Assembly: GCF_009184865.1 (NCBI RefSeq)
Contig: NZ_CP045096.1
Span: 62,001-126,000 of the forward strand
Source: Streptomyces phaeolivaceus
Lineage (GTDB): Bacteria > Actinomycetota > Actinomycetes > Streptomycetales > Streptomycetaceae
Direction of reading: 5' to 3'
DNA: 64,000 nt
The notes under the pieces are model-generated. The model ran no database searches. It had not been told where the DNA came from and worked only from the letters and a program-made list of their open reading frames with translations. Below, in pieces: positions 14,633-33,928 of the stretch (positions are counted from its first letter, which is position 1; each line of letters opens with the position of its first letter). The position numbers and the translations under genes are program-made.

Positions 14633-14638
14633 AACGAC

Positions 14639-17700: not shown

Positions 17701-20700
17701 CGTACTCGAACGTCCACGCCAGCTCGCCCGGCGGGGTCTGGGTGACCACGCGGCCCGCGCTGTCGTAGGTGTAGGCCGTCTTCAGCGCCGGGGAGATCCG
17801 CGGATCCCACTGCTCACGCAGCCGGCCCGAGGCGTCGTACGCGTAGCTGGAGATCACCGTGGCGGTGGCGGTGGACGCGCCCGGGTCGGTGGACCACAGA
17901 CGGAGCCGGTAGACCTGCCCGGCGTAGTCGCCGAGCGTGCTGCCGGTCGCCGTGGTCGTGGCGGCGTACTGGTACTCCAGGATGCGGCAGCCCTTGGTGG
18001 ACGGGGCGTTGGCGCAGGTCTCGTTGCTCACCGCCGACGAGGGGGCGATCACGTACTTCGGGCGGGCCAGCACGGTGCCGCCCACGGTGACCTTCTCCGA
18101 GTACAGCGAGGTGGTGGAGTTCTCGGTCGAGAGCGAGGTCTTGGAGAGCTGCCAGGTCGTCGCCGCCGCGTCGATCTTGGTGAACTGCGATGTGGTGCCC
18201 TCGGTGTCCTTCAGGGTGAAGGAGCCGGTCAGGCTGCCGGTGAGGGTCAGGGCCTCGGCGCCCTCCTCGGGCTTCCAGCCGCCGCCGCTGGTCGCGGTGA
18301 ATCCGGTCTCGTCGCCTTCGATGTCCACCAGGGCGACCGAGGTGTCCGACGTCCTGCGCAGGTACAGCGACTCGGAGTCGGTGAGTTCGGCGGTGGTGCC
18401 CGCGGTCCACTGCGGACCGAAGACGGCGACCTGGCCCTCCTGCTGTCCGCCCGCTGTCGGACGGCGTGAGGACGCGGTGCGGCTCGCGGTCAGGCCGAAC
18501 GCCGAGGCGTCGGTCGCGGAGAGCGAGTGGTCGCCGGTGAGCATGTTCACGTCTCCCGGGCCGGCGGCCTGGGTCGGCGCGGCGCCCGCGTCACGGTCGA
18601 CGGTGATGGAGGCGGCCGGGGAGGCGTCGGTGCTGGAGCCGTCGGTGAAGACCGCGCGGATGTCCACCGGACCGTCCTCGGCGAGGGTGTCGGTGATGTT
18701 CCACACCAACTCCTCCGGCAGACCACCGGTCACCTTCACCGGCCAGGCGGCGACGGCCGCGTTGTCCGACTTGCGGCGCACGTCGGCGACGGGCACGTCC
18801 TTCCAGGAGTCGGTCTCGCCGCGCCGGTACTGGTAACGGACCCCCGTGTCGGCGGTCTTGCCCTGACCGGACAGTACGGTCCGCCGCGCCGGGCGGTCCC
18901 CCTGCGCCGGGGTCAGCAGTGCCGCGCCCGAGCCCGCGTAGTAGACGAAGGTGGTGGTGGCGGATGCGTTGCCGGCGGCGTCCTTGGTGCGGGCGGACAG
19001 GGTGTGCCTGCCCGCGCGGAACACCGGCTTGGCCGTCACGGCGGCGCCGGTGGTGGCGATCGACTGCCAGGCGCCGCCGTCCACCTGCCACTGGACCTCC
19101 TTGACGTCCGAAGACGGCGGAGTGAGCGTGAAGCCTCCGGTGAAGTCGCCGCTGCCGTTCGGAGTGCCGGACCACTGTCCGGCGGGGAAGTCGGTGGAGG
19201 CGACCGATGTCGCGGCAGGGGAGGCGGTGTCCACTGTCAGGGTACGGAAGGCCGACCATGCGCTGGTGGCGGAGCCGTCACCGGCGCGGACCCGCCATTT
19301 GTAGGAGCCCGCGGCGAGTGCGGCCGGGGTCCAGTTGGCCTGGGCGCCGGAGGCGACCGCGGCGCTGGAGCCGGTGCGCAGGGCGGCGGTTCCGGTGGAG
19401 GTCCACACCTCGTGGTCGAGGGTGACCTGCGAGCCGTCGCCGTCCAGGGCCTTCGCCGACAGCGTCGGGGTGGTGTCGTTGGTGGCGGCCCCGCTCAGCG
19501 GGGCGATCAGGGTCGGCAGTTCGGGGACCGAGTTGTACGTCACCGACAGGTAGGGCGTGTTCGAGGCGGCGTTGCCGGAGTAGAACCGCTTCCAGCCGTA
19601 CGGGTCGGTCTCGTCCGTGGCCCGCACGCCCAGGTGGTTGGTGGCACTGCCGTTGGCCGCCCACGCCTTGGCCAGGGAGGTCACGTCGGCGTTGACCCAG
19701 CCGTCGGCGCAGGCACTGGAGAAGCCCTTGGTCTGGGTGCTGGTGGCGTATCTCGTCCCCCAGGAAGGCTGTGCCGACCAGCGCGAGGACGTGGTCGCGG
19801 CGCCGGTGGACCACACCTCCCAGCTCTTCTCGGTGCAGGACCACGAGTGGTAGGCGAACAGGTTCAGTTTCGCCGCCGAGACCTGTTTGCCCGTGATGTT
19901 CTTCATCGGGAACGACAGGAACGAACGCGCCACCTGCGAGGAGCCGTTGTTGCCGAGCTTGAGGTCCGTGGACGCGGACTGGTCGGTCGTGGTCCCGTCC
20001 TGGACGAAGGTGTCGAAGCTGGCCCCCACGTTGATCGCGGGGTCGATCGTCACCGGGAACCGCGTCGCGCTGTCGGCCAGGAACTTCGCGTCCGGTGTCA
20101 GGGTCAGGGTGACGGTGTCTCCGTCCTGGGCCGCCTTCACCCCGACCGGGGCGGTGCGCTTGTGCTCACCGGACTTGGCGTCGATCTGGGCGTCCCACAT
20201 CACCGGTGTCGGCAGCACCCCGACGCGCTTGCCCTTGGCGTCGGCGAAGGAGACCGAGCCGTCCTTGTTCTCCTTCGCGGTCAGGCCCTTGGCGGTCAGG
20301 CTGTAGGTGATCGCGCCGCTCGCGTCGACAGCGGAACGGTCCTTCAGTTCCAGGAACTGCTCGTAGCCGGTACGCGTCGACTCGACCAACAGGTCGGTCG
20401 AGGGGAGGGCGCTCCGGTAGCGGGCGACGTTGTCCTCCTCGCCCTCGATCACCGGCGCGGGAAGGGCCCCGTACCAGCCCAGTTGCATGCGCTGTCCGGT
20501 CCGGCCCTCCAGTGTCACCAGGGGGACACCGGCCGAACCCGTGCTCTCGCCGACGCTCTTGAGCCCCTTGGGGGCCGTGGTCCTCCCGGCCAGGCGCAGC
20601 CCGTGCGGATGCTGTCGGGCGCCCACCGCGCCGTCCGAAAGCTTCCGCAGCGAGACGTCGATGTCCTGCCATCGGTCCTGGTCGTCCTGGAACCGGATCG

Positions 20701-21067
20701 GCCCGGCGTATGCCTCCTCGGTCACCGAACCGTCCGGGTTGACGTACACCGTGGACGTCTCGGTACGGGCGTCCAGCGCCTCGATCCGACGGTTCTGGAT
20801 CTTCGCCTTCAGCCGGGCGGCGGCCACCGATCCGGCGGTCGCGGACCCGAGGTCCTTGGCCCGCTTGCCCCGGTCGGCGGCAGGCGCTTCGCGGCCCAGG
20901 CCCACCGCGACGGTGGAGGTTCCGGCGATCAGGGCGGTTTCGAAGGCCATCGCCAGGACGACGGTCGCCGCCACCGAACGGAGGCGTCTTCGCCGGGCCG
21001 GAGGAAGGAAGGGCCGGACGGACGGTCTGTCCGCTCTCCGCCCGGGTCTGAGGAACGTGGCTATCAA
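14753..21067 (-). CDS. Giant secreted DNRLRE/RHS-repeat protein with a variable C-terminal toxin-like domain
   Basis: About 2104 residues from TTG 21067, preferred because AAGGAG lies 5 bases upstream; an in-frame ATG at 21121 lacks a site. A basic N-terminus and hydrophobic segment (VVLAMAFETALIAGTSTVAV) give export. A DNRLRE module lies about 19530-20040 and Ig/FN3-like modules about 18900-19500. Some 60 RHS/YD-type segments fill about 15200-18500, for example YDAAGRLTRADD and YDSADRLIATGTAYDAFGR. The RHS core signature RLYDSDTGRFLSVDRIVGGN is near 15230-15290. After CYDISGNYS comes a unique 130-residue tip with NAYRHCIWQAMLT, GNAHEKN and FNNKVGRKLGG, resembling the DUF6973 motif set (RHxxW, HE, NNxVGR). 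The tip is visibly AT-richer than the rest. By family this is a contact-dependent or secreted polymorphic toxin; toxicity is unproven. Confidence 0.85.
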   Translation of the reverse strand: MIATFLRPGRRADRPSVRPFLPPARRRRLRSVAATVVLAMAFETALIAGTSTVAVGLGREAPAADRGKRAKDLGSATAGSVAAARLKAKIQNRRIEALDARTETSTVYVNPDGSVTEEAYAGPIRFQDDQDRWQDIDVSLRKLSDGAVGARQHPHGLRLAGRTTAPKGLKSVGESTGSAGVPLVTLEGRTGQRMQLGWYGALPAPVIEGEEDNVARYRSALPSTDLLVESTRTGYEQFLELKDRSAVDASGAITYSLTAKGLTAKENKDGSVSFADAKGKRVGVLPTPVMWDAQIDAKSGEHKRTAPVGVKAAQDGDTVTLTLTPDAKFLADSATRFPVTIDPAINVGASFDTFVQDGTTTDQSASTDLKLGNNGSSQVARSFLSFPMKNITGKQVSAAKLNLFAYHSWSCTEKSWEVWSTGAATTSSRWSAQPSWGTRYATSTQTKGFSSACADGWVNADVTSLAKAWAANGSATNHLGVRATDETDPYGWKRFYSGNAASNTPYLSVTYNSVPELPTLIAPLSGAATNDTTPTLSAKALDGDGSQVTLDHEVWTSTGTAALRTGSSAAVASGAQANWTPAALAAGSYKWRVRAGDGSATSAWSAFRTLTVDTASPAATSVASTDFPAGQWSGTPNGSGDFTGGFTLTPPSSDVKEVQWQVDGGAWQSIATTGAAVTAKPVFRAGRHTLSARTKDAAGNASATTTFVYYAGSGAALLTPAQGDRPARRTVLSGQGKTADTGVRYQYRRGETDSWKDVPVADVRRKSDNAAVAAWPVKVTGGLPEELVWNITDTLAEDGPVDIRAVFTDGSSTDASPAASITVDRDAGAAPTQAAGPGDVNMLTGDHSLSATDASAFGLTASRTASSRRPTAGGQQEGQVAVFGPQWTAGTTAELTDSESLYLRRTSDTSVALVDIEGDETGFTATSGGGWKPEEGAEALTLTGSLTGSFTLKDTEGTTSQFTKIDAAATTWQLSKTSLSTENSTTSLYSEKVTVGGTVLARPKYVIAPSSAVSNETCANAPSTKGCRILEYQYAATTTATGSTLGDYAGQVYRLRLWSTDPGASTATATVISSYAYDASGRLREQWDPRISPALKTAYTYDSAGRVVTQTPPGELAWTFEYGKAGASSVAGDGMLLSVSRPTLKPGSKDEPDGGRAAVSLVYDVPLSGTKAPNQVSPADARTWAQTDAPTDATAVFPADQVPASHNGTDLGAGDYDKATTTYTNASGLQVNTGLPGRHLTTTQYDAFGNVVLELGATNRELALGSAEYQVNTQSELGILSDSPAERAQKLATVAKYSADGRRIVDRLGPLHLVTLTKQLQGDSDSPDIPAGTQVPARGHTVTRYDEGRPTDGSALVMDQPTTSSTGAFVEDYPTDGDIRTSTTGYDWVKGLPTSTVTDPNGLKLTRTSVFDAQGRVTKNSQPKSNGTDAGTLVSQYWSAGGTGACSGRPEWADLLCSSGPAGKITGGGSNPDELPTKTLEYDRWGNVSKVTEAANGVTRTTVTTYDAAGRGKQIQISGGVGTAVPTQTITFDSANGQVATMSDGATTVRHSADKLGREISYDDGAGNVTRTEYDARDRVTRRADSAPSETTYSYDSLTGQATRIHDSVMGGIGDVTGSYDSDGRLYKQKLPWNMDVEFNLDPTGAETSRYWHWESGWTVQGESLSENIHGQVVSRTTYTGGGAYQEYTYDAAGRLTRADDTQTGVTTHRGYGFDDNTNRTSLVTTVDDVDGGAPTSTTVNSSYDSADRLIATGTAYDAFGRTTTQSSGAENAYYANDLVRRITARGERTTWNLDATGRLASSTKESQDDNGAWSTTATTRSHYGADGDNPTWIGEGDDKITRNLSDLTGGLIATTGATSAEVVLQLANIHGDIATQIPLVDATTPVVNSYDEYGNLLPGTDEARYGWLGAEQRSSETPSAVTLMGVRLYDSDTGRFLSVDRIVGGNASSYDYCFADPVNCYDISGNYSINGLVPEAAICALFLLWCADMAYITYWALGEAKKRYSGAKQNAYRHCIWQAMLTWAVGSSLAKALGNAHEKNAGSGEAARRDSAADKFNNKVGRKLGGKITAWTYGKAKETACRFCKDAVKKHKLKSNAKGKNMV

Positions 21068-21243
21068 GCTCACTCCTTGCAACGGTGCGGGGTCTTCCCG
21101 CAAGCACCTGACGATCTTCACAGCGTGCTTACAGAAGTCAATCCGTTACATGACAAGTGGTCGCTTCAAGCCAACGTTGGCCGATAGTCGTGGACTTGCT
21201 CACCCACACCGTCGGGCCGCGCGCTCCATCCGGCGGGTCGACC

Positions 21244-21807
21244 TCAGTCTGAGCAACTGGTCGCGGAGCCGTCGGCCGTGGCGTTGACGGCGACGAGGTA
21301 ACCGGCTCCGGAGTCGAACTCGGGCCCGGCTTCGGCCCCTTCCGCGTCGAGAACCGACTCGGTCAGGAAGTAGACGTCCAGCGTCGTGGAGTCGTCCTTC
21401 TCGCCGAGGGTGAAGCACAGGCTCGCGGGCTTGTCCTCCTTCGCGGACTTCCGGGTGGCCGGAGACGGCTTCCACCCTTCGCGCTCCGCTGCGGCGCGGT
21501 AGTACCGGGTGACGTCGGCCCTGTCGCCGGGGAAGGCATAGGTGCGGTTGGCATACACCCACGCTTCGCCGCTGTCCTCCCAGCAGCCTGCGTCCAGAGC
21601 CTCGAAGCCCTTGGGCACGACGGCCCCCTGGGGCCGGGAGTCGAGAACGCCGTACGCCTTCAGGTCGTCGACCCGGCTCTCGGTACCCTCGCAGCCCTGG
21701 GTGGAGGCGGCGTCCGCGAAGGTCTGACACCCGGTGAGCGCCCCGGTCGCCGACGCGACCGCCAGCAGGAGGGTGGCACACCAGCCGGTTCCCTTACGAG
21801 GTGTCAA
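21244..21807 (-). CDS. Lipoprotein upstream of the RHS gene
   Basis: About 187 residues from TTG 21807, preceded by GGGAG at 5 bases. Alternatives in frame are GTG 21819 and ATG 21867; the TTG gives the most normal lipoprotein signal (basic TPRKG, hydrophobic CATLLLAVASATGA, lipobox LTGC). The mature part carries several Cys (QGCEGTES, AGCWEDS, SLCFTLGE and a terminal TSCSD) and VYANRTYAFPGDRADVTRYY; I do not recognise a family. It lies 176 bases upstream of the RHS gene on the same strand and may be cotranscribed. A surface-anchored partner or immunity-type role for the RHS protein is inference from position. Confidence 0.7.
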   Translation of the reverse strand: MTPRKGTGWCATLLLAVASATGALTGCQTFADAASTQGCEGTESRVDDLKAYGVLDSRPQGAVVPKGFEALDAGCWEDSGEAWVYANRTYAFPGDRADVTRYYRAAAEREGWKPSPATRKSAKEDKPASLCFTLGEKDDSTTLDVYFLTESVLDAEGAEAGPEFDSGAGYLVAVNATADGSATSCSD

Positions 21808-21867
21808 GTCGACTCCCACGGTTGACGCGCCGAGGCAGCCGATCTCACTGCCTGATACCAAATACAT

Positions 21868-22380
21868 GCGATCAGTGACATTACCATTTCTTCCGGTGAT
21901 CGCCGACCGTATCCAACTCCCCTGCCCCTCGGGGGTGTTCGGCGGTTCGCGGCGCGCCGGTGCGCCATGCGCCGGAGCCCGCACTAGACCAAGATCGATA
22001 AACCTCTTACCCAACCCTCCGAGGCATGTGATGTGCGACACACGCGCGAGGCGCGCGCGGAGGCCCGCGCGCCTCGGCCGCGAGCGAGGCGACGAAGTCT
22101 CGGCGCTCGCCCTGATTTCCCTCAACACCCTTGCGGCAAAGCTGATGTGACGATCCGTCAGATCATCCGGGAGCGAGCGGATCGGTTCGATCAGGTGGTG
22201 GACCGCCCACCCTGGACATCCCTCCCCGCGTGAACATTTAATGGCTGAGCAAGGTGAACTTTGCGTTTCTCATGTGTCGAGAGGGATCGTTTCGGCCCTA
22301 GATTTCGCCCTGTAGACCGTGAACAATGCACATTTCGCCCACATGTTTGGGCAAAGCTCCGGGGTGGGGGTTCTGGGTTC
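21868..22380. promoter_or_regulatory. Divergent regulatory region with a strong hairpin
   Basis: About 510 bases between the minus-strand lipoprotein gene and the plus-strand glycosyltransferase gene. It contains a perfect 11-bp stem (CGAGGCGCGCG 22047-22057 with CGCGCGCCTCG 22066-22076). An AT-richer stretch at 22225-22345 has three GTGAAC motifs and a small dyad GCCCA/TGGGC (about 22338-22353). It probably holds the promoters of both directions and a long leader for the polysaccharide operon. No known riboswitch consensus was recognised. Confidence 0.5.
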
Positions 22381-23673
22381 GTGTCGGATTTTTTCGACGA
22401 TCTCTGGTCGTGGATAGTCATGGCGACCGCCGAGACATCATGGCGTGAGTTGATGCCACTGGGTATCGCAGGCGCCTTCGTCTGGGGCTTGTGGCTCTAT
22501 CGTGCGGTGCTCTCCCGGTTCGCCAAACCCGTGGTGAACAACTACCGGACCACGGTGTCCGTGGTGGTCCCCGCGTACCGGGAGGACGCGGACATCCTGC
22601 TCGACTGCCTGGACTCATGGCTGGAGCAGGGGCCGGCCGAGGTCATCATCGTCCCGGACGTCGAGGACACGGAGGTCCTGCGCAGGCTTGCGCAGGTGAA
22701 CGATCCCCGCGTCCGGGTGCTGGCGTTCGAACACCGTGGGAAGCGGTCGGCGCTGGGAGTGGGGATCCGGGCCGCGACGAGCGAGCTCGTGGTGCTGGTG
22801 GACTCGGACACGCGGTGGGAGCCGGGGCTGCTGGCCGCCGTCCAGATGCCGTTCGTCGATCCCGAGGTCGGCGGTGTCGGCACCCAGCAGAACGTCTACC
22901 AGCGCCGGACCAGCGTCTGGCGGCGTATCGCGGACTGGCTGGTCAACCTCCGGTACTACGACTACGTGCCGGCCATGGGCCGCGCGGGCGCCGTGGCCTG
23001 CCTCTCCGGCCGGACGGCGGCCTATCGGCGGGCCGCGATCGAGCCCGTGCTGGAGAACCTGGAGAACGAGTTCTTCCTGGGCCGGCGTTGTGTCGCCGGC
23101 GACGACGGACGGCTGACCTGGCTGGTGCTGGCCTCCGGTTACAAGACCGTGCACCAGTCCTCCGCGCGGGCGATCTCGATGTTCCCCTCGTCCTTCCGCG
23201 CCTTCGTCAAGCAGCGGGTGCGCTGGAGCAGGAACTCCTACCGCTGCTATCTGACCGCCCTGTACAAGGGCTGGCTCTGGCGGGTCCCGCTGGTCACCAA
23301 GATCACCGTGCTGCAGATCCTGCTGACGCCGATCACGATGGGCATGGCGCTGGGGTATCTGCTGTTCAGCCGGCTGGAGCTGACCGGGCGGGGCATCGTC
23401 CTCGTACTGATCTGGCTGCTCGTGGGACGCGGCATCCGCGGTTATTCGCATCTGCGCAGACATCCGCAGGAGGTGCTGCTGCTGCCGCTGCTGGCACTCG
23501 TCGTCATCATGATCTCGCTGCCGATCAAGCTGTTCGCCTTCATCACCATGAACAAGCAGGGCTGGCTGACGCGCACCAGCGACAGTGTCGGCGGAGAGGG
23601 GCAGGACTCCGCCTCTCTGCGAGGCGCGACGCGGGTCACGGCCAACTCGTGGCCGGAGGTGCAGCAGTCATGA
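22381..23673 (+). CDS. Processive family 2 glycosyltransferase (Alg8/hyaluronan-synthase-like)
   Basis: 430 residues from GTG 22381, with a G-rich site (GTGGGGG) upstream. A membrane polysaccharide synthase. An N-terminal helix (LMPLGIAGAFVWGLWLYRAV) precedes the GT-A domain. VSVVVPAYRED, the D-x-D motif VLVDSDTRWEPG, the acceptor-side GDDGRLTWLVL and the processive signature KQRVRWSRNSY (Q-x-x-R-W type) are all present. Three or four C-terminal helices follow (ITVLQILLTPITMGMALGYLL, GIVLVLIWLLVGRG and VLLLPLLALVVIMISLPIKL). This layout fits Alg8 and hyaluronan synthase. The stop overlaps the next start (ATGA). With a UDP-glucose dehydrogenase in the same locus, UDP-glucuronate is the likely donor; that is inference. 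Confidence 0.9.
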   Translation: MSDFFDDLWSWIVMATAETSWRELMPLGIAGAFVWGLWLYRAVLSRFAKPVVNNYRTTVSVVVPAYREDADILLDCLDSWLEQGPAEVIIVPDVEDTEVLRRLAQVNDPRVRVLAFEHRGKRSALGVGIRAATSELVVLVDSDTRWEPGLLAAVQMPFVDPEVGGVGTQQNVYQRRTSVWRRIADWLVNLRYYDYVPAMGRAGAVACLSGRTAAYRRAAIEPVLENLENEFFLGRRCVAGDDGRLTWLVLASGYKTVHQSSARAISMFPSSFRAFVKQRVRWSRNSYRCYLTALYKGWLWRVPLVTKITVLQILLTPITMGMALGYLLFSRLELTGRGIVLVLIWLLVGRGIRGYSHLRRHPQEVLLLPLLALVVIMISLPIKLFAFITMNKQGWLTRTSDSVGGEGQDSASLRGATRVTANSWPEVQQS

Positions 23674-25595
23674 CACGTCAGCACCTTCCGTCCGCTCTGC
23701 GGATGCTCCGGGGCGCGGTCGTGCTCCCTCTCGCCGCCGGTCTGCTCTTCACCTCCGCCTCGGCCGTCCCTGCCGCCGACGGCGACGACAAGCCGCAGGT
23801 CAACGCCGCCGACGCGGAGAACGAGACCGCGCTCGTGGCCGCCGAGGACCACCGTCTGGACCAGGTCCGCGCGGTCGCCGCCGTCGCCCCCTTGAAGGGG
23901 GGCGAGTGGAAGGCGCCGTACCGACTGGACACCGGGGACGGCTACACGCTGGTCCTGACCCAGCGCAGCAACGCCTACACCGTCTCCGACCTGCTCGAAC
24001 TGGCTCCGCAGACGTTCGTACGCGAGCGGGACGGTTCGTATCTGCTGACCGAGAACATCTATCTCAACGCCGGTGCCAAGCTGAAGCTGTCCAATCCCGG
24101 TGGTCTGACGCTGAAGATGGCCAGCAGCAACAGGGGCTTCGTCAGCATCGTCTCGTTCGGTGGCCGGCTCACTCTGGCGGGCACCAAGCAGGCGCCGTTG
24201 AAGGTCACCAGCTGGGACGACAAGAAGAACAAGCCCGACACGGACGTGCGGGACGGCCGGGCCTACATCCGTGCCATCGGCGGTCAGTACGCCATGGACT
24301 ACGCCAAGGTCAGCGACCTCGGGTTCTGGAGCGGTCGCACGGGCGGCCTGAGCCTCACCGGAACCGACCGTCCCGACACCGGCAACGTCGACGACACGAC
24401 GGTCGCTCCGGGCACGAAGGGCGGCAACGGCGGTGTGGTGGCCCAGCCCTCCGGTTCGCTGGCCACACCGGACACCCGGTTCTCGGTGCCCAGCCTGTCC
24501 TACGTCTCCGCGGAGATCGCGCACTCCACTCTCACGGGCAACGCCTTCGGACTGTTCCTGTCCGGCGCCAACGGCGTCAGCATCAGTGACAGCACCGTGC
24601 AGAAGAGCCTGGAACACGGCCTGGTACTGCACCGGTTCGTCACCAACGCCGTGGTCGAGGGGACCGTCTCCAGGAACAACGGCGGCGACGGCTTCGTGCT
24701 GGCCCGTGCCACCGAGCAGGTCCGGGTCAGCGGCTCCACCGCCGAGGGCAACGGCGGCAACGGGTTCACGCTCAGCGGGCGGCCGCTCGCCAGCGGCCCC
24801 TCGGCCTCGGGCGAGTCCATCAGCAGCTACGGCTCCAACTCCGTGTCCGACAGCACCGCCAGGGACAACGGCCGCTACGGCATCGAGATCTTCGGCGGCA
24901 AGGACGTCGGGGTGCAGAACAACCGCGTCGAGGGCGGCGACATGGGCATCGTGGCCCGCAAGGACGCCACCAAGGTCGCCATCACCGGCAACCGGCTCGT
25001 CGGCCAGTCACGGCAGGGCATCTCGGTGCGTGACGGAGTGAGCGCCGCGACGATCACCGGCAACATCGTCGAAGGCACCGAGACCGGCATCTACATACGG
25101 GACTCGGTGGGCGAGATCCGCGGCAACACCGTCCAGGACGGCACCAACCACGGGATCACCCTGGTCGGCGGCGTCGAGGAGTCGGTCATCACGTACAACG
25201 TGATCTCCGGGGTCGGCCCGAGCGCCGTGGACACCACGCGCGCCCACGGCGACATCACGGTCAAGCAGAACCAGACGTTCGCCTGGCACGACACCAGCTC
25301 CTTCTGGGTCAAGTTCCGGCACTACGCCAGCCCGATGACGCTGCTGTGGACCTTCATCCTGCTGCTCATCCTGTTCTCCGCCGTCCTGGGCCGACGCCGC
25401 CGAGGAAACCGCCGAGGGCGACGTCCCGGCAGCCATCCGTACGAGGACAAGAAGCCGGTGACGAACAGCGCGTCCGTCGTCGAGATCAGCGTCCCGCGTA
25501 CCTCCTCCTCCGGGCACGACTGGTTCTCCAAGGACGACGAGGACACCACCGCGCTGCGCGCCCTGACCCCTCAGTCCGTCCGCCCGCCCCGATGA
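23670..25595 (+). CDS. AlgG-like right-handed beta-helix protein with C-terminal membrane anchor
   Basis: 641 residues. A signal peptide (LPLAAGLLFTSASAVPAADG) leads to a domain resembling the alginate C5-epimerase AlgG. YTVSDLLELAPQTFVRERDG, LKLSNPGGLTLKMASSNRG and VTSWDDKK with DVRDGRAYIRAIGG match its N-terminal part. A parallel beta-helix of NosD-type turns follows (HGLVLHRFVTNAVVEGT, GDGFVLARATEQVRVSGS, GIYIRDSVGEIRGNTVQDG). From memory of AlgG, its catalytic Y-G-x-D-P-H-D segment aligns with HGLVLHRF, keeping the His but not the Asp residues. Near the C-terminus is a transmembrane helix (LLWTFILLLILFSAVL) with an Arg-rich cytoplasmic tail, unlike soluble periplasmic AlgG. The predicted role is modification or guidance of the nascent polymer at the membrane; activity is uncertain. 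It overlaps both neighbours by 4 bases. Confidence 0.8.
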   Translation: MTRQHLPSALRMLRGAVVLPLAAGLLFTSASAVPAADGDDKPQVNAADAENETALVAAEDHRLDQVRAVAAVAPLKGGEWKAPYRLDTGDGYTLVLTQRSNAYTVSDLLELAPQTFVRERDGSYLLTENIYLNAGAKLKLSNPGGLTLKMASSNRGFVSIVSFGGRLTLAGTKQAPLKVTSWDDKKNKPDTDVRDGRAYIRAIGGQYAMDYAKVSDLGFWSGRTGGLSLTGTDRPDTGNVDDTTVAPGTKGGNGGVVAQPSGSLATPDTRFSVPSLSYVSAEIAHSTLTGNAFGLFLSGANGVSISDSTVQKSLEHGLVLHRFVTNAVVEGTVSRNNGGDGFVLARATEQVRVSGSTAEGNGGNGFTLSGRPLASGPSASGESISSYGSNSVSDSTARDNGRYGIEIFGGKDVGVQNNRVEGGDMGIVARKDATKVAITGNRLVGQSRQGISVRDGVSAATITGNIVEGTETGIYIRDSVGEIRGNTVQDGTNHGITLVGGVEESVITYNVISGVGPSAVDTTRAHGDITVKQNQTFAWHDTSSFWVKFRHYASPMTLLWTFILLLILFSAVLGRRRRGNRRGRRPGSHPYEDKKPVTNSASVVEISVPRTSSSGHDWFSKDDEDTTALRALTPQSVRPPR

Positions 25596-26833
25596 CGACG
25601 CCTTCCGCCGATCCGGAGCCGCCCCGCATGTCCGAGTCCGATGAGACGCCGACCACCACCTCGTCCCCCGCACCTCCCCAGCCGGGGAACGGTCCCGCCC
25701 GGCAGCCGGCCGTCTGGCTGGCGGGGGGCGCGTTCCTGCTCGCCCTGATCGCGCTCGTCGTGGCGGTGGCGAACAGCGGCGACTCGGGCCCGGAGGTGAC
25801 GGCCGGGGCCACCACGGCCGGACCCAGGGTGCCCGAGGCGTCGGCGGCCGAGGACGAACCGTCGGCCGAGCCGACCCGGTCGGAGGTCGAACCGACCCCG
25901 ACCGCGCGCGCGTCCAGCGGTTCGGTGCCGTCGTCCGCCGTCGACTGTCCGAAGGCGTCCGTCGAGGTGAACGACACGGCCTCGCTGGAACAGGCCCTCG
26001 CCGGGGCGCGGCCCGGGGACAGCATCGCGCTGGGCAACGGCACCTACGTGGGCAACTTCACCGCCGAGGCCTCCGGTTCCGCCGAGAAGCCGATCTTCCT
26101 GTGCGGTGGTTCCGGAGCGGTCATCGACGGTGGCGACACCGACGACGGCTACGCCTTCCACCTGGACCGCGTCAGCCACTGGCGGCTGGTGGGCTTCACC
26201 GTCCGCAACGCCCAGAAGGGCGTGATGGCGGACGGCACGGTCGGCAGCGTCATCCAGGGCCTCACCGTCGAACAGATCGGCGACGAGGCCATCCACCTGC
26301 GCAACTTCAGCTCGGACAACATGGTCCGGGACAACACCATCCGCACCACCGGGCTGCGCCGCGAGAAGTACGGCGAGGGCATCTACATCGGCACGGCCGA
26401 GTCCAACTGGTGCACCGTGAGCGACTGCAAGACGGACGCCAGCGACCGCAATGTGCTGCTCGGCAACGACATCAGCGACACCACCGCCGAGTCCATCGAC
26501 ATCAAGGAAGGCACCAGCGACGGCAAGGTCATCGACAACACCTTCGACGGATCGAAGCTGAGCGGCTCCCACAACAACGACTCCTGGGTCGATGTGAAGG
26601 GCAACGGCTGGCTGCTCCAGGGCAACACCGGCAGCCACTCCACGGAGGACGGCTTCCAGACCCACAAGATCGTCAACGGCTGGGGGACCCGGAACATCTT
26701 CCGGGGCAACACCGCGAACGTGGACGGGCCCGGCTACGGCTTCCGGCTCACGTCCGACGGCAACACAGTCACCTGCGACAACAAGGCGAACGACGCGGGT
26801 GAAGGCCTCGCCAACGTCGACTGCACCTCCTGA
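25592..26833 (+). CDS. Membrane-anchored parallel beta-helix protein, polysaccharide-lyase-6-like
   Basis: 413 residues. An N-terminal cytoplasmic Pro/Thr stretch and one helix (AVWLAGGAFLLALIALVVAV, about 40-59) form a signal anchor, then a Pro/Ser/Thr linker. The extracellular part begins with the lyase-6/chondroitinase-B-like opening SLEQALAGARPGDSIALGNG and TYVGNFTAEASGSAEKPIFL. Beta-helix turns follow (WRLVGFTVRNAQKGVMADG, GLTVEQIGDEAIHLRNFSSD, EGIYIGTAESNWC). By family it would cleave or bind an acidic polysaccharide outside the cell, comparable to AlgL in alginate clusters, which clears mislocalised polymer. I cannot confirm catalytic Lys/Arg residues. It overlaps the preceding gene by 4 bases, so it belongs to the same translational unit. 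Confidence 0.8.
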   Translation: MTTPSADPEPPRMSESDETPTTTSSPAPPQPGNGPARQPAVWLAGGAFLLALIALVVAVANSGDSGPEVTAGATTAGPRVPEASAAEDEPSAEPTRSEVEPTPTARASSGSVPSSAVDCPKASVEVNDTASLEQALAGARPGDSIALGNGTYVGNFTAEASGSAEKPIFLCGGSGAVIDGGDTDDGYAFHLDRVSHWRLVGFTVRNAQKGVMADGTVGSVIQGLTVEQIGDEAIHLRNFSSDNMVRDNTIRTTGLRREKYGEGIYIGTAESNWCTVSDCKTDASDRNVLLGNDISDTTAESIDIKEGTSDGKVIDNTFDGSKLSGSHNNDSWVDVKGNGWLLQGNTGSHSTEDGFQTHKIVNGWGTRNIFRGNTANVDGPGYGFRLTSDGNTVTCDNKANDAGEGLANVDCTS

Positions 26834-26842
26834 CCCACATCC

Positions 26843-26886
26843 GCCCCATCGCCACCGCGGGCCAACCCTGGCCGGTGCGGTGGGGC
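26843..26886 (+). terminator. Intra-operon hairpin before the UDP-glucose dehydrogenase gene
   Basis: GCCCCA (26843-26848) pairs with TGGGGC (26881-26886), flanking CCACCG/CGGTG-type pairing and an inner perfect stem GGCCA (26860-26864)/TGGCC (26869-26873). No T-run follows. It may attenuate read-through into the dehydrogenase gene, whose ribosome binding site begins about 17 bases later, or act as a partial terminator. Confidence 0.45.
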
Positions 26887-26916
26887 GTCATGCCCGAAAC
26901 ACCTCTGGAGACCACC

Positions 26917-28263
26917 ATGACCTCTTCGGACGACACCGAAAGAACCGCTCCCCGCCTCACCGTCATAGGCACCGGCTATCTCGGCGCCACCCACGCCATC
27001 TGCATGGCCGTCCTGGGTTTCGACGTCCTGGGTGTGGACGTCGACCCGGACAAGATCGAGCGGCTGAACTCGGGCGAGGTGCCCTTCTTCGAGCCCGGTC
27101 TGCCCGAACTGCTCGCGAAGGCCCTCGACAGCGGGCGGCTGCGGTTCACCACGAGCTTCGCCGAGGCCGGGGAGTTCGGTGACGTCCACTTCGTCTGCGT
27201 CGGCACTCCCCAACTCCCGGGCTCCTTCGGGGCGGATCTGCGCTATGTCGACAGCGCGGTGGGCGAACTCGCCCAGCATCTGCGCAGGCGCACCCTGGTG
27301 GTCGGCAAGTCCACGGTTCCGGTGGGCACCGCCGCGCGGCTGACGGAGATCGTCCGGAGCACGGCCCCGGCCGGGGCGGACGTCGAACTCGCCTGGAACC
27401 CGGAGTTCCTGCGCGAGGGCTATGCCGTGGACGACACCCTGCGGCCCGACCGGCTGGTCTTCGGCGTCGCGTCGGAGTGGGCCGAGGAGCGGCTGCGCGC
27501 CGCGTTCGCCCCGGTGATCGCCCAGGGCACCCCGGTGGTCGTCACGGATCTGCCCACCTCGGAACTCGTCAAGGCCGCCGCGAACTCCTTCCTCGCCACC
27601 AAGATCTCCTACATCAACGCCATGGCGGAGATCTGCGAGGCGACCGGCGCCGATGTCACCGCGCTCGCCCAGGCGCTGGCGTACGACGACCGGATCGGCG
27701 GCCGGTTCCTCAAGCCCGGCCTCGGCTTCGGCGGCGGCTGCCTGCCCAAGGACATCCGGGCCTTCAGCCACCGCGCCGAGGAACTGGGCGTCGGCCAGGC
27801 CGTCTCCTTCCTGCGCGAGGTCGACGCCATCAACCAGCGGCGCCGGGCCCGCACCGTGGACCTGGTACGCGAACTGGCGGGCGGCGAGTTGGCGGGCGCC
27901 CGGGTGACCGCGCTGGGGGCGGCGTTCAAGCCCAACTCCGACGACATCCGTGACGCTCCCGCCCTGGACGTGGCCCGTACCCTGCACCAGGCCGGCGCCG
28001 AGGTGACCGTCATCGATCCGGCGGCCGTCGACAACGCCCGCCGGGCCTACCCCGACCTCCAGTACGGCACGGACGTCCTCGCCGCGGCCACCGGGGCCGA
28101 TGTCGTCGTACTGCTCACCGAATGGGCCGAGTTCCGGGAGATCGACCCGCACGCCCTGGGCGCGGTCGTCGCCCGGCGCCGGATCGTCGACGGCCGCCAC
28201 GCCCTCGACCCCGCACAGTGGCGTGCCGCCGGATGGGACTACCGCGCGCTGGGCCGACCCTGA
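26917..28263 (+). CDS. UDP-glucose/nucleotide-sugar 6-dehydrogenase
   Basis: 448 residues from ATG 26917 (CTGGAG at 7 bases). It oxidises a UDP-hexose twice with NAD+ to the uronic acid, most likely UDP-glucose to UDP-glucuronate. The NAD motif GTGYLGATHAICMAVLGFDV is at 11-30 and FFEPGLPELLAKAL at about 62-75. EFLREGYAVDDTLRPDRLVF follows, then the catalytic Cys in GLGFGGGCLPKDIRAF (about 268-283) and the C-terminal domain LGAAFKPNSDDIRDAPALD. PFFEPGLPELL favours UDP-glucose over GDP-mannose specificity, but the two cannot be separated safely by eye. It supplies the sugar donor for the synthase at 22381. A 83-base gap with a hairpin separates it from the three coupled genes. Confidence 0.92.
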   Translation: MTSSDDTERTAPRLTVIGTGYLGATHAICMAVLGFDVLGVDVDPDKIERLNSGEVPFFEPGLPELLAKALDSGRLRFTTSFAEAGEFGDVHFVCVGTPQLPGSFGADLRYVDSAVGELAQHLRRRTLVVGKSTVPVGTAARLTEIVRSTAPAGADVELAWNPEFLREGYAVDDTLRPDRLVFGVASEWAEERLRAAFAPVIAQGTPVVVTDLPTSELVKAAANSFLATKISYINAMAEICEATGADVTALAQALAYDDRIGGRFLKPGLGFGGGCLPKDIRAFSHRAEELGVGQAVSFLREVDAINQRRRARTVDLVRELAGGELAGARVTALGAAFKPNSDDIRDAPALDVARTLHQAGAEVTVIDPAAVDNARRAYPDLQYGTDVLAAATGADVVVLLTEWAEFREIDPHALGAVVARRRIVDGRHALDPAQWRAAGWDYRALGRP

Positions 28264-28409
28264 CGGCGGACTCGTTCGCTGTCGGGGGTGCTGCCGTGCT
28301 CGGCGCGGACGTCGAGCACGGCGGTGGTCGCGGCCACCGTCCGCGCGCGTCCCGGTTTCGCCCTCCCGTGGTCATGATCGGCGCCCGCATACTCGGCGGA
28401 ACGAGATCG

Positions 28410-28760
28410 ATGGACGCGTTCCGTGACACAGCCCGTGGCCGTGACTTGCCGCAGGACGAGGTCGAGCGGTGGCTCGGTACCGTGCGTCGCTGCCCGACGC
28501 CGGGCGTCTCCGGGCAGGTGCCGCCGGACGGGCCGGTGGTCGGACGGATCGGCGGGCTGCCGCCGATGCCCGAGGGCGAGCCCGTTCCGGAGCTGCCGTT
28601 CCTCGCCGCGATCGACCTCGCGGCCCTCCCCGCCGACGCGACGGACCTCCCGCCGCCGAAGGACGGCACACTGCTCTTCTTCGCCGACACGGAGGACCCG
28701 TGGAGCGGCGACGGCTGGGCCCGGCTCGTGTACGTCCCGGTCGGCACGCCCGTCTCCTAG
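28410..28760 (+). pseudogene. DUF1963 (YwqG-like) protein, C-terminal half missing
   Basis: 117 residues from ATG 28410. DUF1963 features: RDLPQDEVERWLGTVRRC, GPVVGRIGGLPPMPEGE, PELPFLAAIDLAALPADATD and LPPPKDGTLLFFADTEDP, ending VPVGTPVS then TAG. Intact members are about 250-280 residues, so the second half is absent. The following 200 bases contain no continuation of the family in any frame that I can recognise. A slightly earlier ATG (28374) is possible. Function of the family is unknown. Confidence 0.65.
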
Positions 28761-28769
28761 CACGCCGTC

Positions 28770-28972
28770 GGCGGCGAGTGGCCGACGGCAGGGAGCCGGG
28801 CTCGGTGTGGTGGAAGACCTGCGGGGAGACGCCGTCGGACGGGCCGGTGCGGCTCGGGGGCGAGGACCTCACCGCAGGGGATCTGGGTGTCGTCCAGTGG
28901 GTGATCCGCCGGGACGATCCGGCCGACCGCCGCTTGGACCGGGCACGGGCCGGCTTTGACATCGTCGGCTGA
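28770..28972 (+). pseudogene. Unidentified coding fragment
   Basis: One frame reads GSVWWKTCGETPSDGPVRLG and VVQWVIRRDDPADRRLDRAR, ending IVG then TGA (28970-28972). It has a coding-like composition but no start or upstream homology. I do not recognise the family. It sits between the DUF1963 remnant and a TetR remnant and looks like the tail of a third broken gene. Confidence 0.4.
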
Positions 28973-29297
28973 CACGACCGGCGGGCGGGGCGTCGAGTTC
29001 CGCGTCCTTCAACTCCTCGGCTTCCACGGCTGCCCGTTCGTACGGGCCGGGCTGGAGCTGCCGCCGGGACATCCGGGGCGGGAGATCGTACGCGACCACA
29101 AGGCACGCTTCCGGGCCCGGCTGCGCGCGCTCGCCCTGGCGCTGCCCGCGGCGGATCCGGCGTCCCTGGCCTGGCAGTTGGCCACACTCGCCGACGGCGC
29201 CGCCGCCTGCGTACTGCAGGGCAGCGGCACGCCCGCCCGCGCCGCCCGCACGGTGGCGTTGCTCGCGCTCGACGCGGCGGAGCGCGAACGGGATTGA
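28956..29297 (+). pseudogene. TetR-family regulator remnant lacking the DNA-binding domain
   Basis: The frame to 29297 carries the typical TetR C-terminal ligand-binding half: GFHGCPFVRAGLELPPGHPG, REIVRDHKARFRARLRALAL, LAWQLATLADGAAACVLQGS and ARAARTVALLALDAAERE. The N-terminal helix-turn-helix of about 50 residues is absent; homology begins near FRVLQLLGFHG (about 29000). The ATG at 28956 overlaps the previous fragment and is not a genuine start. The gene is a 5'-truncated remnant. Confidence 0.7.
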
Positions 29298-29333
29298 CCA
29301 CGCACACCAAGCGCGTCCCTCGCGCCCCTCGGG

Positions 29334-30533
29334 TCAGAGGAAATCGGCGAGTCCTTCGAGGAAGCGGTCCGCGTCGTCGGTGGTGTTGTAGGGGGCCAGG
29401 CCCGCGCGGAGGGCGGGGTTTTCGAGCTTGAGCGCGCTGAAGGGTTCGTAGGCGTAGAAGGAGCCCGCCGGCGCCACCACGCCGCGTGCCGCCAGGTGGG
29501 TCTGGGCCTCACGGGCGTCGCGGCCTTCGAGGGTCATCAGGAGGGTGGGCGTGCGGTCGGCGGCCTTCGAGTGCAGGGTGAGGGCGTCGCCCAGGGATGC
29601 GAGGCCCTCCTGCAGCCGTGCGCGCAGCGTCAGTTCGTGCGCGTGCAGCGAGTCCAGGGAGCGGGTGAGGCGCTCCCTGCGCGTGGCCCCCGCGCCGGGG
29701 TCCAGGTCGGCGAGGAAGTCGACGGCGGCGGTGGCGCCGGCCAGGGTCTCGTACGGCAGGGTGCCGAACTCGAAGCGTTCGGGGACCGTGTCGGGGGAGG
29801 GCATCAGCTTGTCCGGGCGCAGGGTTTCGAGGAACTCGGGCGCCGCGGCGAGGACTCCGCAGTGCGGTCCGAGGAACTTGTACGGCGAGCAGACGAACAT
29901 GTCGGCTCCGAGGGCGGGTACGTCCACGAGGTGGTGCGCGGCGTAGTGGACGCCGTCCACGTACACCAGGGCGCCGGCCTCGTGCGCGCGGTCGGCGATC
30001 CGGCGGACGGGCGGCTTGGTGCCCAGCACGTTCGACGCGGCCGTGACCGCGACCACCCGGGTGCGGGAGGTCAAGGCCCGTTCGTACGAGTCGAGATCCA
30101 GCTCCGTGGTCTCCGGGTCGATCTCGATCCAGCGGACCGTCGCTCCGGCGCGTTCGGCGGCCTGGATCCAGGGGCGGACGTTGGCGTCGTGGTCGAGGCG
30201 GCTGAGGACGATCTCGTCGCCGGGGGTCCAGGTCTTGGCGAGGTGGCGGGAGAAGTCGTAGGTGAGCTGGGTGGCGCTGCGGCCGTGGACGACACCGTTC
30301 GCGGGCACGTGGAGAAGATCGGCGTAGGCGGCGCGGAAGTCGGCGACGGCGCGTTCGGCGTTGACCTCGGAGGCGCTGACGGTGCCCCGGTTGGAGAGCG
30401 GGCCGGTCAGTGTCGCGGCGACGGCTTCGGCGACGGGGCGGGGCGTCTGGGTTCCGCCGGGGCCGTCGAAGAAGGCGAGGCCCGTGTCGAGGGAGGGGAA
30501 GTGGGCCCGCAGGGCGGTGAGGTCGATGGCCAT
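29334..30533 (-). CDS. Cysteine-desulfurase-like PLP enzyme (class V aminotransferase fold)
   Basis: 399 residues from ATG 30533; a longer frame to 30620 is not supported by homology. A fold-type I PLP enzyme of the VC1184/TIGR01976-like cysteine-desulfurase group. FFDGPGGTQTPRPVAEA is at about 23-39. NRGTVSASEVNAER follows, then VYVDGVHYAAHHLVDVPALG with the PLP-interacting Asp and His, and CSPYKFLGPHCGVLA with the Schiff-base Lys near residue 219. These proteins are often annotated cysteine desulfurases, but the true substrate of this branch is poorly known. It is divergent from a LysR regulator 92 bases away, which probably controls it. It is complete and in good codon bias. Confidence 0.85.
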   Translation of the reverse strand: MAIDLTALRAHFPSLDTGLAFFDGPGGTQTPRPVAEAVAATLTGPLSNRGTVSASEVNAERAVADFRAAYADLLHVPANGVVHGRSATQLTYDFSRHLAKTWTPGDEIVLSRLDHDANVRPWIQAAERAGATVRWIEIDPETTELDLDSYERALTSRTRVVAVTAASNVLGTKPPVRRIADRAHEAGALVYVDGVHYAAHHLVDVPALGADMFVCSPYKFLGPHCGVLAAAPEFLETLRPDKLMPSPDTVPERFEFGTLPYETLAGATAAVDFLADLDPGAGATRRERLTRSLDSLHAHELTLRARLQEGLASLGDALTLHSKAADRTPTLLMTLEGRDAREAQTHLAARGVVAPAGSFYAYEPFSALKLENPALRAGLAPYNTTDDADRFLEGLADFL

Positions 30534-30568
30534 GGTCTCGCTTTCTGTCGGGCGCGGTGCCCCTACTC

Positions 30569-30587
30569 TGTCGTCGAGCGCGCGACA
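30569..30587. promoter_or_regulatory. Dyad in the LysR/desulfurase divergent promoter region
   Basis: TGTCG (30569-30573) and CGACA (30583-30587) form a perfect 5-bp dyad with a 9-base spacer in the middle of the 92-base intergenic region. It is the best candidate operator for the LysR regulator, which typically binds such a shared site. Confidence 0.4.
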
Positions 30588-30625
30588 CGTAAAGCGATGG
30601 ATCACGAAGAGAAAGTTCATGAACC

Positions 30626-31588
30626 GTGAGGTCCCAGCCGGATCTGAAGCTGCTGGCCACCTTTCTGGCCGTGGTGCGCCGGGGCTCGATGGCCGAGGCC
30701 GCCGCGGAGCTCGGCTATGTGCCCTCCGCGGTGTCCCAGCACATCGCCGCGCTCGAACGCGATCTGGGCGTCGAGCTGATCGTCCGCCGCCCCGGCAGCC
30801 GGCTGATCCTCACGGCGGCCGGACGCTCCCTCGCGGGGGCGGCCGAGACGCTCTTCGACGCGACCGCGCGGTTCCAGGACGCGGCCCACGCCATCGCGGG
30901 CCGGGAGGTCGCCGAACTGCGTGTCGGGATCTATCCCAGTGCGATGACCTATCTGCTGCCCCGGGTGCTGGCCATGCTCAGGGCCCGCCGCCCGGGTCCC
31001 CGGATCCGTCTCGTCGTCGTGGAGACCGACGGGGGTGTGCCGAGGGTGCGGTCGGGTGACCTCGATCTGCTCGTCGCCTACCGCTATCTGCCCGAGGATC
31101 CACCGGCCGCGTCCGAGGCGCTGACCATCACCGTGCTGGGGCGCGAACCGCTGGTGCTGGTCGCGGGCGCCGATCCGCCGCGGCGGCGCCCGGTGGGGCT
31201 GGCCGAATGCCTGGAGCAGGAGTGGGTCTCCGGTCACGCGCACAACCCCGACCGGCGGCTGCTGCGCCGCTGGGCCGGGGAGCTGGGGATCGCGCCCCGG
31301 GTGACGCTGGAGACCGAGGATCTGCACAGCATGCTCGCCATGATCCGGGCCGGACTCGCGGTGGGCCTGATCCCGGCCACGCTCCTCGGCGGCGACGGCG
31401 CGGGGCACGACGCCGGAGTGGACAGGGTCGTCCTGCCGCCGGGGGTCGCGCCGCTGCACCGCGAGATCCTCGCCGTCAGCCGTCCCGGCGCACGGCCCCC
31501 GGTCATCGACGAGCTGGTCACGCTGCTGGCCCGTGCCGTGGAGAGCGTACGGGCCGGTACCGGGCCTTCGGGCAGGCACGGGCGCTGA
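30626..31588 (+). CDS. LysR-family transcriptional regulator
   Basis: 320 residues from GTG 30626. The winged helix-turn-helix occupies residues 5-62: LKLLATFLAVVRRGSMAEAA, ELGYVPSAVSQHIAALERDL and LIVRRPGSRLILTAAGRSL. The two-lobe periplasmic-binding-like effector domain follows, with GREVAELRVGIYPSAMTYLL at its start and the hinge around LDLLVAYRYLPEDPP. It is divergent from the PLP enzyme gene and is probably its activator as well as its own repressor; this follows the usual LysR arrangement. The inducer is unknown. Confidence 0.92.
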   Translation: MRSQPDLKLLATFLAVVRRGSMAEAAAELGYVPSAVSQHIAALERDLGVELIVRRPGSRLILTAAGRSLAGAAETLFDATARFQDAAHAIAGREVAELRVGIYPSAMTYLLPRVLAMLRARRPGPRIRLVVVETDGGVPRVRSGDLDLLVAYRYLPEDPPAASEALTITVLGREPLVLVAGADPPRRRPVGLAECLEQEWVSGHAHNPDRRLLRRWAGELGIAPRVTLETEDLHSMLAMIRAGLAVGLIPATLLGGDGAGHDAGVDRVVLPPGVAPLHREILAVSRPGARPPVIDELVTLLARAVESVRAGTGPSGRHGR

Positions 31589-31635
31589 GAGGATCCCGAC
31601 GGCCGGCATGGCTCGCCACGAACGTCACGGGCGGC

Positions 31636-32532
31636 TCAGCGGGAGGTGAGCGGGGTCTCGTGCTCGACACGGGTCAGTTTCTCGGGGTTGCGGACGTAGT
31701 AGAGGCCGGTGACGCGGGCGTTCTCCACGCGGAAGGCGAGCACGCCGTCGATCTCGCCGTCCAGGCGCAGGACGAGTCCCGGGTTGCCGTTGACCGTCGT
31801 GTGCTCTCCGACGAGAATGCCGCCGGCCTTGGCGAGGCTGCCGACCATGTAGCGGAGCACCTTGTCGGCGCCGACGACCGGTCGGGGCGCGGCCAGCTTG
31901 AGGCCGCCGCCGTCGCTGACGAAGACGACGTCCGGGGCGAGCACATCGAGCAGTCCCTGCAGATCCCCGGTCACCAGCGCGTTCTGGAACGAGTCCAGCG
32001 CCACCCGGGTCTCCTGCGGGGAAGCCGCCGTACGCGGTCGGCGCGCGTCCACGTGCCGGCGGGCGCGGTGGGCGATCTGGCGTACGGCGGCGGGGCTCTT
32101 GTCGATCGCGGCGGCGATGTCGTCGTAGCCGAAGTCGAAGACCTCGCGCAGGACGAAGACGGCTCGTTCGGTCGGCGAGAGGGTTTCGAGGATGAACATC
32201 AGGGCCAGCGACAGGTTCTCGGACAGCTCGACGTCCTCGGCCACGTCCGGCGTGGTGAGCAGCGGCTCGGGCAGCCAGGGGCCGACGTAGGCCTCCTTGC
32301 GCCGATTGAGGGTGCGCAGCCGGTTCAGTGCCTGCCGGGTCGTGATCCGTACCAGGTAGGCGCGCTGGTCGCGCACCTCCGCCGGGTCGACGTTCACCCA
32401 GCGCAGCCAGGTCTCCTGGAGGACGTCCTCGGCGTCGGCGGCCGAGCCGAGCATCTCGTAGGCGACGGTGAACAGCAGATCGCGGTGGGCGACGAAGGCC
32501 TCCGTCGCGGGGTCGGTGACGTCGTCGTTCAT
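31636..32532 (-). CDS. ECF41-group RNA polymerase sigma factor (SigJ-like)
   Basis: 298 residues. Sigma region 2 lies at about 10-75 (YEMLGSAADAEDVLQETWLR) and region 4 at about 108-158 (LSPTERAVFVLREVFDFGYD). The linker carries GPWLPEPLL, and the C-terminal SnoaL-like extension of about 130 residues carries SDGGGLKLAA and VRNPEKL. W-L-P-E-P, D-G-G-G-K-like and N-P-D-K-L-like motifs are diagnostic of ECF41, in which the C-terminal extension, instead of an anti-sigma factor, controls activity. ECF41 genes are linked to an oxidoreductase, epimerase or carboxymuconolactone decarboxylase gene; here the flavin oxidoreductase upstream on the same strand fits. No ECF41-type promoter was seen directly before this gene. 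Confidence 0.93.
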   Translation of the reverse strand: MNDDVTDPATEAFVAHRDLLFTVAYEMLGSAADAEDVLQETWLRWVNVDPAEVRDQRAYLVRITTRQALNRLRTLNRRKEAYVGPWLPEPLLTTPDVAEDVELSENLSLALMFILETLSPTERAVFVLREVFDFGYDDIAAAIDKSPAAVRQIAHRARRHVDARRPRTAASPQETRVALDSFQNALVTGDLQGLLDVLAPDVVFVSDGGGLKLAAPRPVVGADKVLRYMVGSLAKAGGILVGEHTTVNGNPGLVLRLDGEIDGVLAFRVENARVTGLYYVRNPEKLTRVEHETPLTSR

Positions 32533-32645
32533 CTCGTACGCTTCGCTCTCCGCTGGTCGGGCCCTTGGGCCCGGAGCGGGCCAGGGAACATGTACCCGCT
32601 CCGGTCACCCATCCGGTCACAAGGTCGGCGGCGGCCGCTCATCGG

Positions 32646-33869
<1,224 letters not shown>

Positions 33870-33901
33870 CATGTCTCCCTCGGTTCTGGACTCGACATGG
33901 A

Positions 33902-33928
33902 GACACCGGCCGCGTGACGGCTGTGACA
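33902..33928 (-). promoter_or_regulatory. ECF41-type promoter upstream of the oxidoreductase gene
   Basis: On the minus strand TGTCACA (33922-33928) is followed after exactly 16 bases by TGTC (33902-33905). The ECF41 consensus as I know it is TGTCACA in the -35 region and CGTC in the -10 region, so the match is complete at -35 and three of four at -10. The predicted start of transcription lies about 25 bases before the coding start at 33869. Confidence 0.55.

Follow-up and report, generated by a model that had tools for sequence, protein, structure and literature searches.

A widely conserved four-gene operon in Streptomyces phaeolivaceus and other actinobacteria, predicted to direct synthesis of a uronic acid exopolysaccharide

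We analyzed a 64,000-nucleotide stretch of the 10.18-Mb Streptomyces phaeolivaceus genome (positions 62001 to 126000 of contig NZ_CP045096.1), here called the window, in which four open reading frames (ORFs), all on the + strand, are tightly packed within positions 22381 to 28263 (Table 1). They encode a processive family 2 glycosyltransferase (GT2), a right-handed beta-helix protein of the AlgG fold (BH2), a lyase of polysaccharide lyase family 31 (PL31), and a uridine diphosphate (UDP)-glucose 6-dehydrogenase (UGD). Genes 1 and 2 (positions 23670 to 23673) and genes 2 and 3 (positions 25592 to 25595) are coupled by ATGA overlaps of 4 bases, and gene 4 follows 83 bases on. On balance, we favor the reading that the product of this operon is a polyuronate, either secreted or bound to the surface and likeliest of the beta-1,4-linked glucuronan type, made by a bacterium that lacks an outer membrane. 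It would be a synthase-dependent uronic acid exopolysaccharide operon, a known kind, here built from other families.

From the gene content, gene order, conservation, predicted folds, and retained active-site residues observed here, we infer the sugar, its linkage, its epimerization, export by the synthase alone, and a biological role. UGD would convert UDP-glucose to UDP-glucuronate (UDP-GlcA), which GT2 would polymerize into a chain that leaves the cell by the synthase's own membrane channel, without an export pore. Tethered to the membrane, BH2 would bind the emerging polyanion and probably C5-epimerize some residues from glucuronate (GlcA) to iduronate (IdoA), and the membrane-anchored PL31 lyase would trim or release chains, as AlgL does with alginate. 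The role of AlgL is also mentioned in the accessible part of a 2024 paper (PMC11468063). UDP-GlcA is favored as the donor because the nearest relatives of GT2, the hyaluronan synthases (HAS), use it, and this donor, together with a PL31 lyase acting on beta-1,4 polyuronates, would make beta-1,4-polyglucuronate the likeliest product.

The locus resembles the alginate operon of Pseudomonas and Azotobacter (alg8, algG, algL, and algD) in combining a processive synthase, an extracytoplasmic protein with a C5-epimerase fold, a lyase, and a nucleotide-sugar dehydrogenase. It differs in its HAS/NodC-class synthase, its PL31 rather than PL5 lyase, its UDP-glucose-type dehydrogenase, its complement of only four genes, the membrane tethering of its processing enzymes, and the absence of acetylation and outer membrane genes among the neighbors scanned. 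A preliminary description of the same DNA had called the locus alginate-like. The operon logic behind that name stands, as do the four consecutive genes with their overlaps, the synthase motifs, the choice of UDP-glucuronate over guanosine diphosphate (GDP)-mannuronate, and, judging from hydropathy peaks, the tethering of both beta-helix proteins facing outside, whereas the parts and the likely sugar are not those of alginate.

The four-gene order is conserved well beyond this genome. A search with BH2 in 391 genomes of the order, its own included, gave matches in 16 at an E value of 0.001 or less, 14 of them strong (E of 3.7e-165 or better; its own genome and 13 others), and the order GT2, BH2, second beta-helix gene, and UGD was kept in all 13 of these others. 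A scan of GTDB contigs with a GT2 alignment retained the best 80 of 218 relatives, of which 79 were examined and one (L163) was left out. Among these 79 loci, hereafter type I, 65 have the four genes in order, including one (L144) whose script flag arose only from two matches overlapping by 48 bases. Six more (L101, L109, and L115 to L118) have the first three genes, with UGD absent from the fetched stretch, seven are cut off by the end of the contig ahead of gene 3, and one (L155) has GT2 alone. Such recurrence, in 13/13 genomes and 65/79 loci, indicates that the arrangement is not due to chance. Within the best 80 of 218, the closest relatives are Streptomyces stelliscabiei, S. scabiei, and S. 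europaeiscabiei (synthase identity, 94 to 95%), and the genera carrying the locus include Streptomyces, Streptacidiphilus, Actinoplanes, Catellatospora, Herbidospora, Actinomadura, Nonomuraea, Kribbella, and Arthrobacter. By the script thresholds, BH2 is doubled in 35 of the 79 loci and the PL31 gene in 8, and one locus (L107) has a second PL31 gene beyond UGD.

Some type I loci have features of their own. Tandem BH2 pairs are found in many Streptosporangiales-type loci (L119 to L160) and in no Streptomyces locus. Five Catellatospora loci (L109 and L115 to L118) have a neighborhood in common, with an operon lacking an adjacent UGD, so that UDP-GlcA would need a source elsewhere in the genome. 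The locus left out, L163 (WNZI01000020.1), lies on a contig whose title names Vibrio cholerae strain 35D and carries the actinobacterial operon (synthase identity, 68%); the label probably reflects contamination or a mislabeled record.

GT2 carries the motifs D-S-D (D141 and D143), G-D-D (D241 and D242), and Q-x-x-R-W (Q278, R281, and W282), which are kept in all 79 synthases. It matches HAS and NodC, has the fold, motifs, and membrane topology of class I HAS, and finds its nearest solved relatives among the HAS. The preliminary description had named one placement as fatal to its proposal, a grouping with lipid- or cellulose-like enzymes whose substrates include no uronic acids, and this is not the placement found. 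The suggestion that the synthase is the counterpart of Alg8 by descent fared less well, as the matches are to HAS and NodC; no match named Alg8 appeared in the sequence or structure lists (VIA-align and Foldseek), although the Alg8 content of the libraries was not checked and these lists are no evidence of a difference from Alg8. The curated NodC model TIGR04242 scored 143.9 bits, below its cutoff of 550. GT2 is unlike class I HAS and NodC in its AlgG-fold and PL31 partners and in reading SGRTAAYR where HAS have SGPLGMYR, their acceptor motif, or GGPLGAY. The residues S209-G210-R211-T212 are invariant (35/35 rows), and CLSGRTA[AV]YRR is common to type I synthases and to the type II synthases described below. 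A Sinorhizobium match (H40; 27.6%) was considered as a possible glucuronan synthase and dropped; it is a pSymA plasmid record without annotation and most likely nodC.

The dehydrogenase has all three UDPG/MGDP domains (PF03721, PF00984, and PF03720) above cutoff and scores 418 bits against TIGR03026 (cutoff, 189.8). It matches the UDP-glucose dehydrogenase 4a7p at 339 bits, versus 181 bits for the GDP-mannose dehydrogenase 1mfz, a ranking that points to UDP-glucose rather than GDP-mannose as the probable substrate. The catalytic Cys275 is kept in 65 of 65 copies. We took the ATG at 26917 as its start, with GTG at 26875 and ATG at 26890 as alternatives.

The third protein, which has a single N-terminal membrane helix (from residue 41), had been described as of the lyase-6 type and proved instead to be a PL31 lyase. 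Over residues 129 to 403 it is homologous to the beta-helix of PsAly (6KFN; E value, 1.6e-46), an alginate lyase of Paenibacillus sp. FPU-7 that is now placed in PL31, according to the part of PMC8286568 available. PL6 identity was rejected, as the PL6 enzyme AlyGC gave an E value of 0.035 and Chondroitinas_B scored 15.1 bits (cutoff, 24). PsAly Tyr184 and Lys221, catalytic by mutagenesis in the available part of PMC6796002, correspond to Tyr265 and Lys305 of the window protein. The fully conserved PsAly residues Lys128, His154, Arg156, Asp250, and Lys252 are all kept as well, together with the first cation site (Glu181, Glu216, and Asp219), Asp246, Gln276, and His278. Across 79 copies from 71 loci, these 13 kept positions are constant except for Asp334 and Gln356 (78 copies each); Tyr265, Lys305, Lys209, His235, Arg237, and Lys336 are present in all 79. 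The window lyase is unlike PsAly in being membrane-anchored and encoded with a synthase. PL31 enzymes are reported, in the portions of the literature available, to be active on polymannuronate, alginate, and beta-1,4-glucuronan, and the third protein is predicted to act on a beta-1,4 polyuronate.

For BH2, the best PDB structural match is AlgG, followed by AlgE6 and AlgE4, which agrees with its earlier designation as AlgG-like and with a right-handed beta-helix of that type. Hydropathy peaks indicate an N-terminal signal sequence and one C-terminal membrane helix (hydropathy window from residue 556). All 45 aligned rows have the same residues at His321, Arg322, Arg346, Glu406, Arg454, and His494. 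Alignment with AlgG gave two registers that differ by one coil. In the profile-to-profile register (hhalign), the DPHD motif falls on VLHR (residues 319 to 322), which sets His321 on the catalytic His and Arg346 at the place of the catalytic AlgG Arg345; preferring this register for its His-His and Arg-Arg pairing was a choice. BH2 is probably a C5-epimerase-like protein, although the curated AlgG model NF038177 scored 11.6 bits (cutoff, 700).

Two sister groups of loci accompany type I. The same GT2 search found six genomes with a synthase 39 to 41% identical to GT2 (type II; L070 to L075), an alginate-like locus in actinobacteria. Like type I, these loci have a nucleoside diphosphate-sugar dehydrogenase (6/6), beta-helix proteins, and an alginate-type lyase; unlike type I, they have a beta-helix protein that carries a genuine DPHD motif (5/6), a PL14-like lyase motif in place of PL31 (6/6; Pfam PL14 confirmed in the two tested), and an ambiguous dehydrogenase (134 bits to the UDP-glucose enzyme versus 126 bits to the GDP-mannose enzyme in the one tested). 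Therefore, a second alginate-type lyase family recurs in the same setting. Action on glucuronan is known for PL14. A PL14 search of the S. phaeolivaceus genome gave no match, and neither did the control genomes, so the search is uninformative on absence. The bacterial sequences closest to the brown algal epimerases are possibly related to the DPHD epimerases of type II. Type III (L079 to L083 and L165; synthase identity, 31 to 34%) has GH26-like proteins, assigned by Pfam (three proteins from two loci) and by cluster (five loci), and UGD in three of the six (L079, L083, and L165). L165 lies at positions 24179 to 28750 of plasmid pTCL of Curtobacterium sp. TC1, where a "glycosyl hydrolase" is annotated and the genes overlap. 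The GT2 tree gathers the synthases of types I, II, and III into one group per type (support, 98/96, 99/94, and 99/99); two NodC rows fall among the type I synthases, where their very long branch was flagged as a possible artifact, PgaC is a very long outgroup, and tree depth was not used. Because the depolymerase family tracks the synthase clade, these patterns suggest that each depolymerase acts on the polymer made by its partner synthase.

Several observations weigh against the glucuronan reading or parts of it. The structure model of GT2 is of middling confidence (predicted local distance difference test, 72.3), and the synthase class leaves the donor unfixed, since HAS use two sugars and NodC uses N-acetylglucosamine (GlcNAc). 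The window lyase differs from PsAly at Asp188, Lys191, Tyr195, and Tyr244, one relative (L039) has changes at the places of Asp246 and Asp250 (Asn at the latter), and the paper on PsAly, in the part of its main text available, does not mention glucuronan (PMC6796002). PL31 also occurs outside the operon: it gave matches at an E value of 0.001 in 18 of 41 relatives, and among ten PL31 loci retrieved, UGD and BH2 lay nearby in two, the window's own and L002, whereas the short flanks of the other eight showed neither. UGD is not adjacent in 6 of the 79 loci, and the own genome holds three further UGD-like genes, which makes the linked copy convenient rather than essential. As for BH2, YGxDPH[DE] is found in 0 of the 79 type I loci, an Arg stands at the place of the DPHD Asp, where the available part of PMC11468063 names both the His and the Asp as catalytic, and the profile-to-sequence register sets DPHD on LFLS (residues 295 to 298), with no His. 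The missing motif and the second register would suit a BH2 that is a noncatalytic AlgG-fold guide or protective scaffold, an idea that concerns this protein alone and is compatible with the rest of the operon as proposed. We regard it as possible but somewhat unlikely, given the six invariant residues and the hhalign register that sets His321 on the catalytic His.

The main rival concerns the polymer itself: a HAS-class synthase of dual specificity could join GlcA to a second sugar, giving a heteropolymer that resembles either hyaluronan (GlcA/GlcNAc) or the type 3 capsule of pneumococci, which consists of GlcA and glucose. This is unlikely in our estimation, as the substrates reported for the partner PL31 family, in the literature portions cited above, do not include hyaluronan, and GT2 has SGRTAAYR at the HAS motif. 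A catabolic locus degrading foreign uronic polymers would accord with the PL31 genes that stand alone in other Streptomyces-like genomes and with the PL31 enzyme of S. tardus, interpreted as catabolic in the available part of PMC8371330, but a processive synthase and UGD overlap or adjoin the lyase and BH2 genes in 65 of the 79 loci, both of these proteins are tethered rather than freely secreted, and the eight neighboring ORFs scanned hold no uptake genes, which together make this explanation highly improbable. The least probable is true alginate, that is, mannuronan from GDP-mannuronate: the AlgG fold of BH2 would fit it, as would a lyase family that acts on polymannuronate, but the linked dehydrogenase ranks clearly with the UDP-glucose enzymes. 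For type II loci, the same ranking cannot tell the two apart.

Taken at its fullest, the glucuronan reading would describe a glucuronan synthase operon of monoderms, in which beta-1,4-polyglucuronate is partly turned to iduronate by a VLHR-bearing AlgG-type epimerase and trimmed by a tethered PL31 lyase, and which, with the PL14/DPHD sister loci, would form a set of actinobacterial alginate analogues, the DPHD branch being perhaps related to the actinobacterial sequences reported as closest, among bacteria, to the mannuronan epimerases of brown algae. We advance this extended version only tentatively. The glucuronan producers Sinorhizobium meliloti M5N1CS and Peteryoungia rosettiformans likewise pair beta-1,4-polyglucuronate with a glucuronan lyase active during production, and the same 2023 source, in its available part, states that the genes and loci for glucuronan biosynthesis are still unknown (PMC10180729). 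Among synthase-dependent exopolysaccharides of Gram-positive bacteria, the available part of a 2020 survey counts only poly-N-acetylglucosamine as characterized both genetically and structurally (PMC7112194), and a companion paper adds Pel. Our literature search on glucuronan or polyglucuronic acid genes, Streptomyces uronic exopolysaccharides, and Gram-positive alginate, which covered few subscription papers, found no description of the operon. Judged by their sequences, the four genes may be the first candidate genes for glucuronan synthesis, and as a four-gene operon that is widely conserved and has defined folds, they make both gaps in the literature testable by expression. If the reading is true, PL31, treated as degradative in the cited literature as far as available, would gain a biosynthetic role, and the operon would offer a candidate route to GlcA/IdoA polymers. 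A 2024 study, in its available part, places the bacterial epimerases nearest to those of brown algae in Actinobacteria (~30% identity) and states that bacteria with PL41 homologues, mainly Streptomyces, are not known for an alginate pathway (PMC11468063); the type II loci, with their DPHD epimerase, may be relevant to how the alginate enzymes of brown algae arose.

Table 1. Positions of the operon genes and selected codons in the window
Feature	Position	Strand	Description
GT2, processive family 2 synthase, HAS/NodC class	22381..23673	+	430 amino acids, GTG start; DSD 141-143, GDD 240-242, QxxRW 278-282
BH2, AlgG-fold right-handed beta-helix, probable C5-epimerase-like	23670..25595	+	641 amino acids; signal sequence, C-terminal membrane helix
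BH2 His321-Arg322 codons	24630..24635	+	Invariant in 45/45 rows; His321 on DPHD His in one of two registers (hhalign)
BH2 Arg346 codon	24705..24707	+	Invariant in 45/45 rows; at AlgG Arg345 place, same register as His321/DPHD
PL31 lyase	25592..26833	+	413 amino acids; N-terminal membrane anchor, extracellular beta-helix domain; 6kfn PsAly, E 1.6e-46
PL31 Tyr265 codon (PsAly Tyr184, catalytic)	26384..26386	+	79/79 copies
PL31 Lys305 codon (PsAly Lys221, catalytic)	26504..26506	+	79/79 copies
PL31-UGD gap	26834..26916		83 bases
UGD, UDP-glucose 6-dehydrogenase	26917..28263	+	448 amino acids, catalytic Cys275; TIGR03026 and 4a7p matches

A Pfam scan of the eight neighboring ORFs found no export genes, in line with the earlier claim that outer membrane export parts are lacking, and none for alg44 or acetylation, the rest of the genome not having been searched for these. 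An Rfam scan of positions 14000 to 34000 gave no riboswitch, for cyclic di-GMP or otherwise, at the gathering score. In search of an upstream regulatory motif, 14 sequences were aligned over the 330 bases that precede the start, and close likeness was seen only among near relatives. On one side, next to the operon, a gene at positions 14753 to 21121 (− strand) encodes a 2,122-amino-acid RHS-repeat protein with an immunoglobulin-like stretch and a C-terminal DUF6973. On the other side lie a class V aminotransferase gene (− strand) with a divergent LysR regulator (+ strand) at positions 29334 to 31588 and, at positions 33914 to 35938 (+ strand), a gene for a serine/threonine protein kinase whose extracellular part is at its C terminus.

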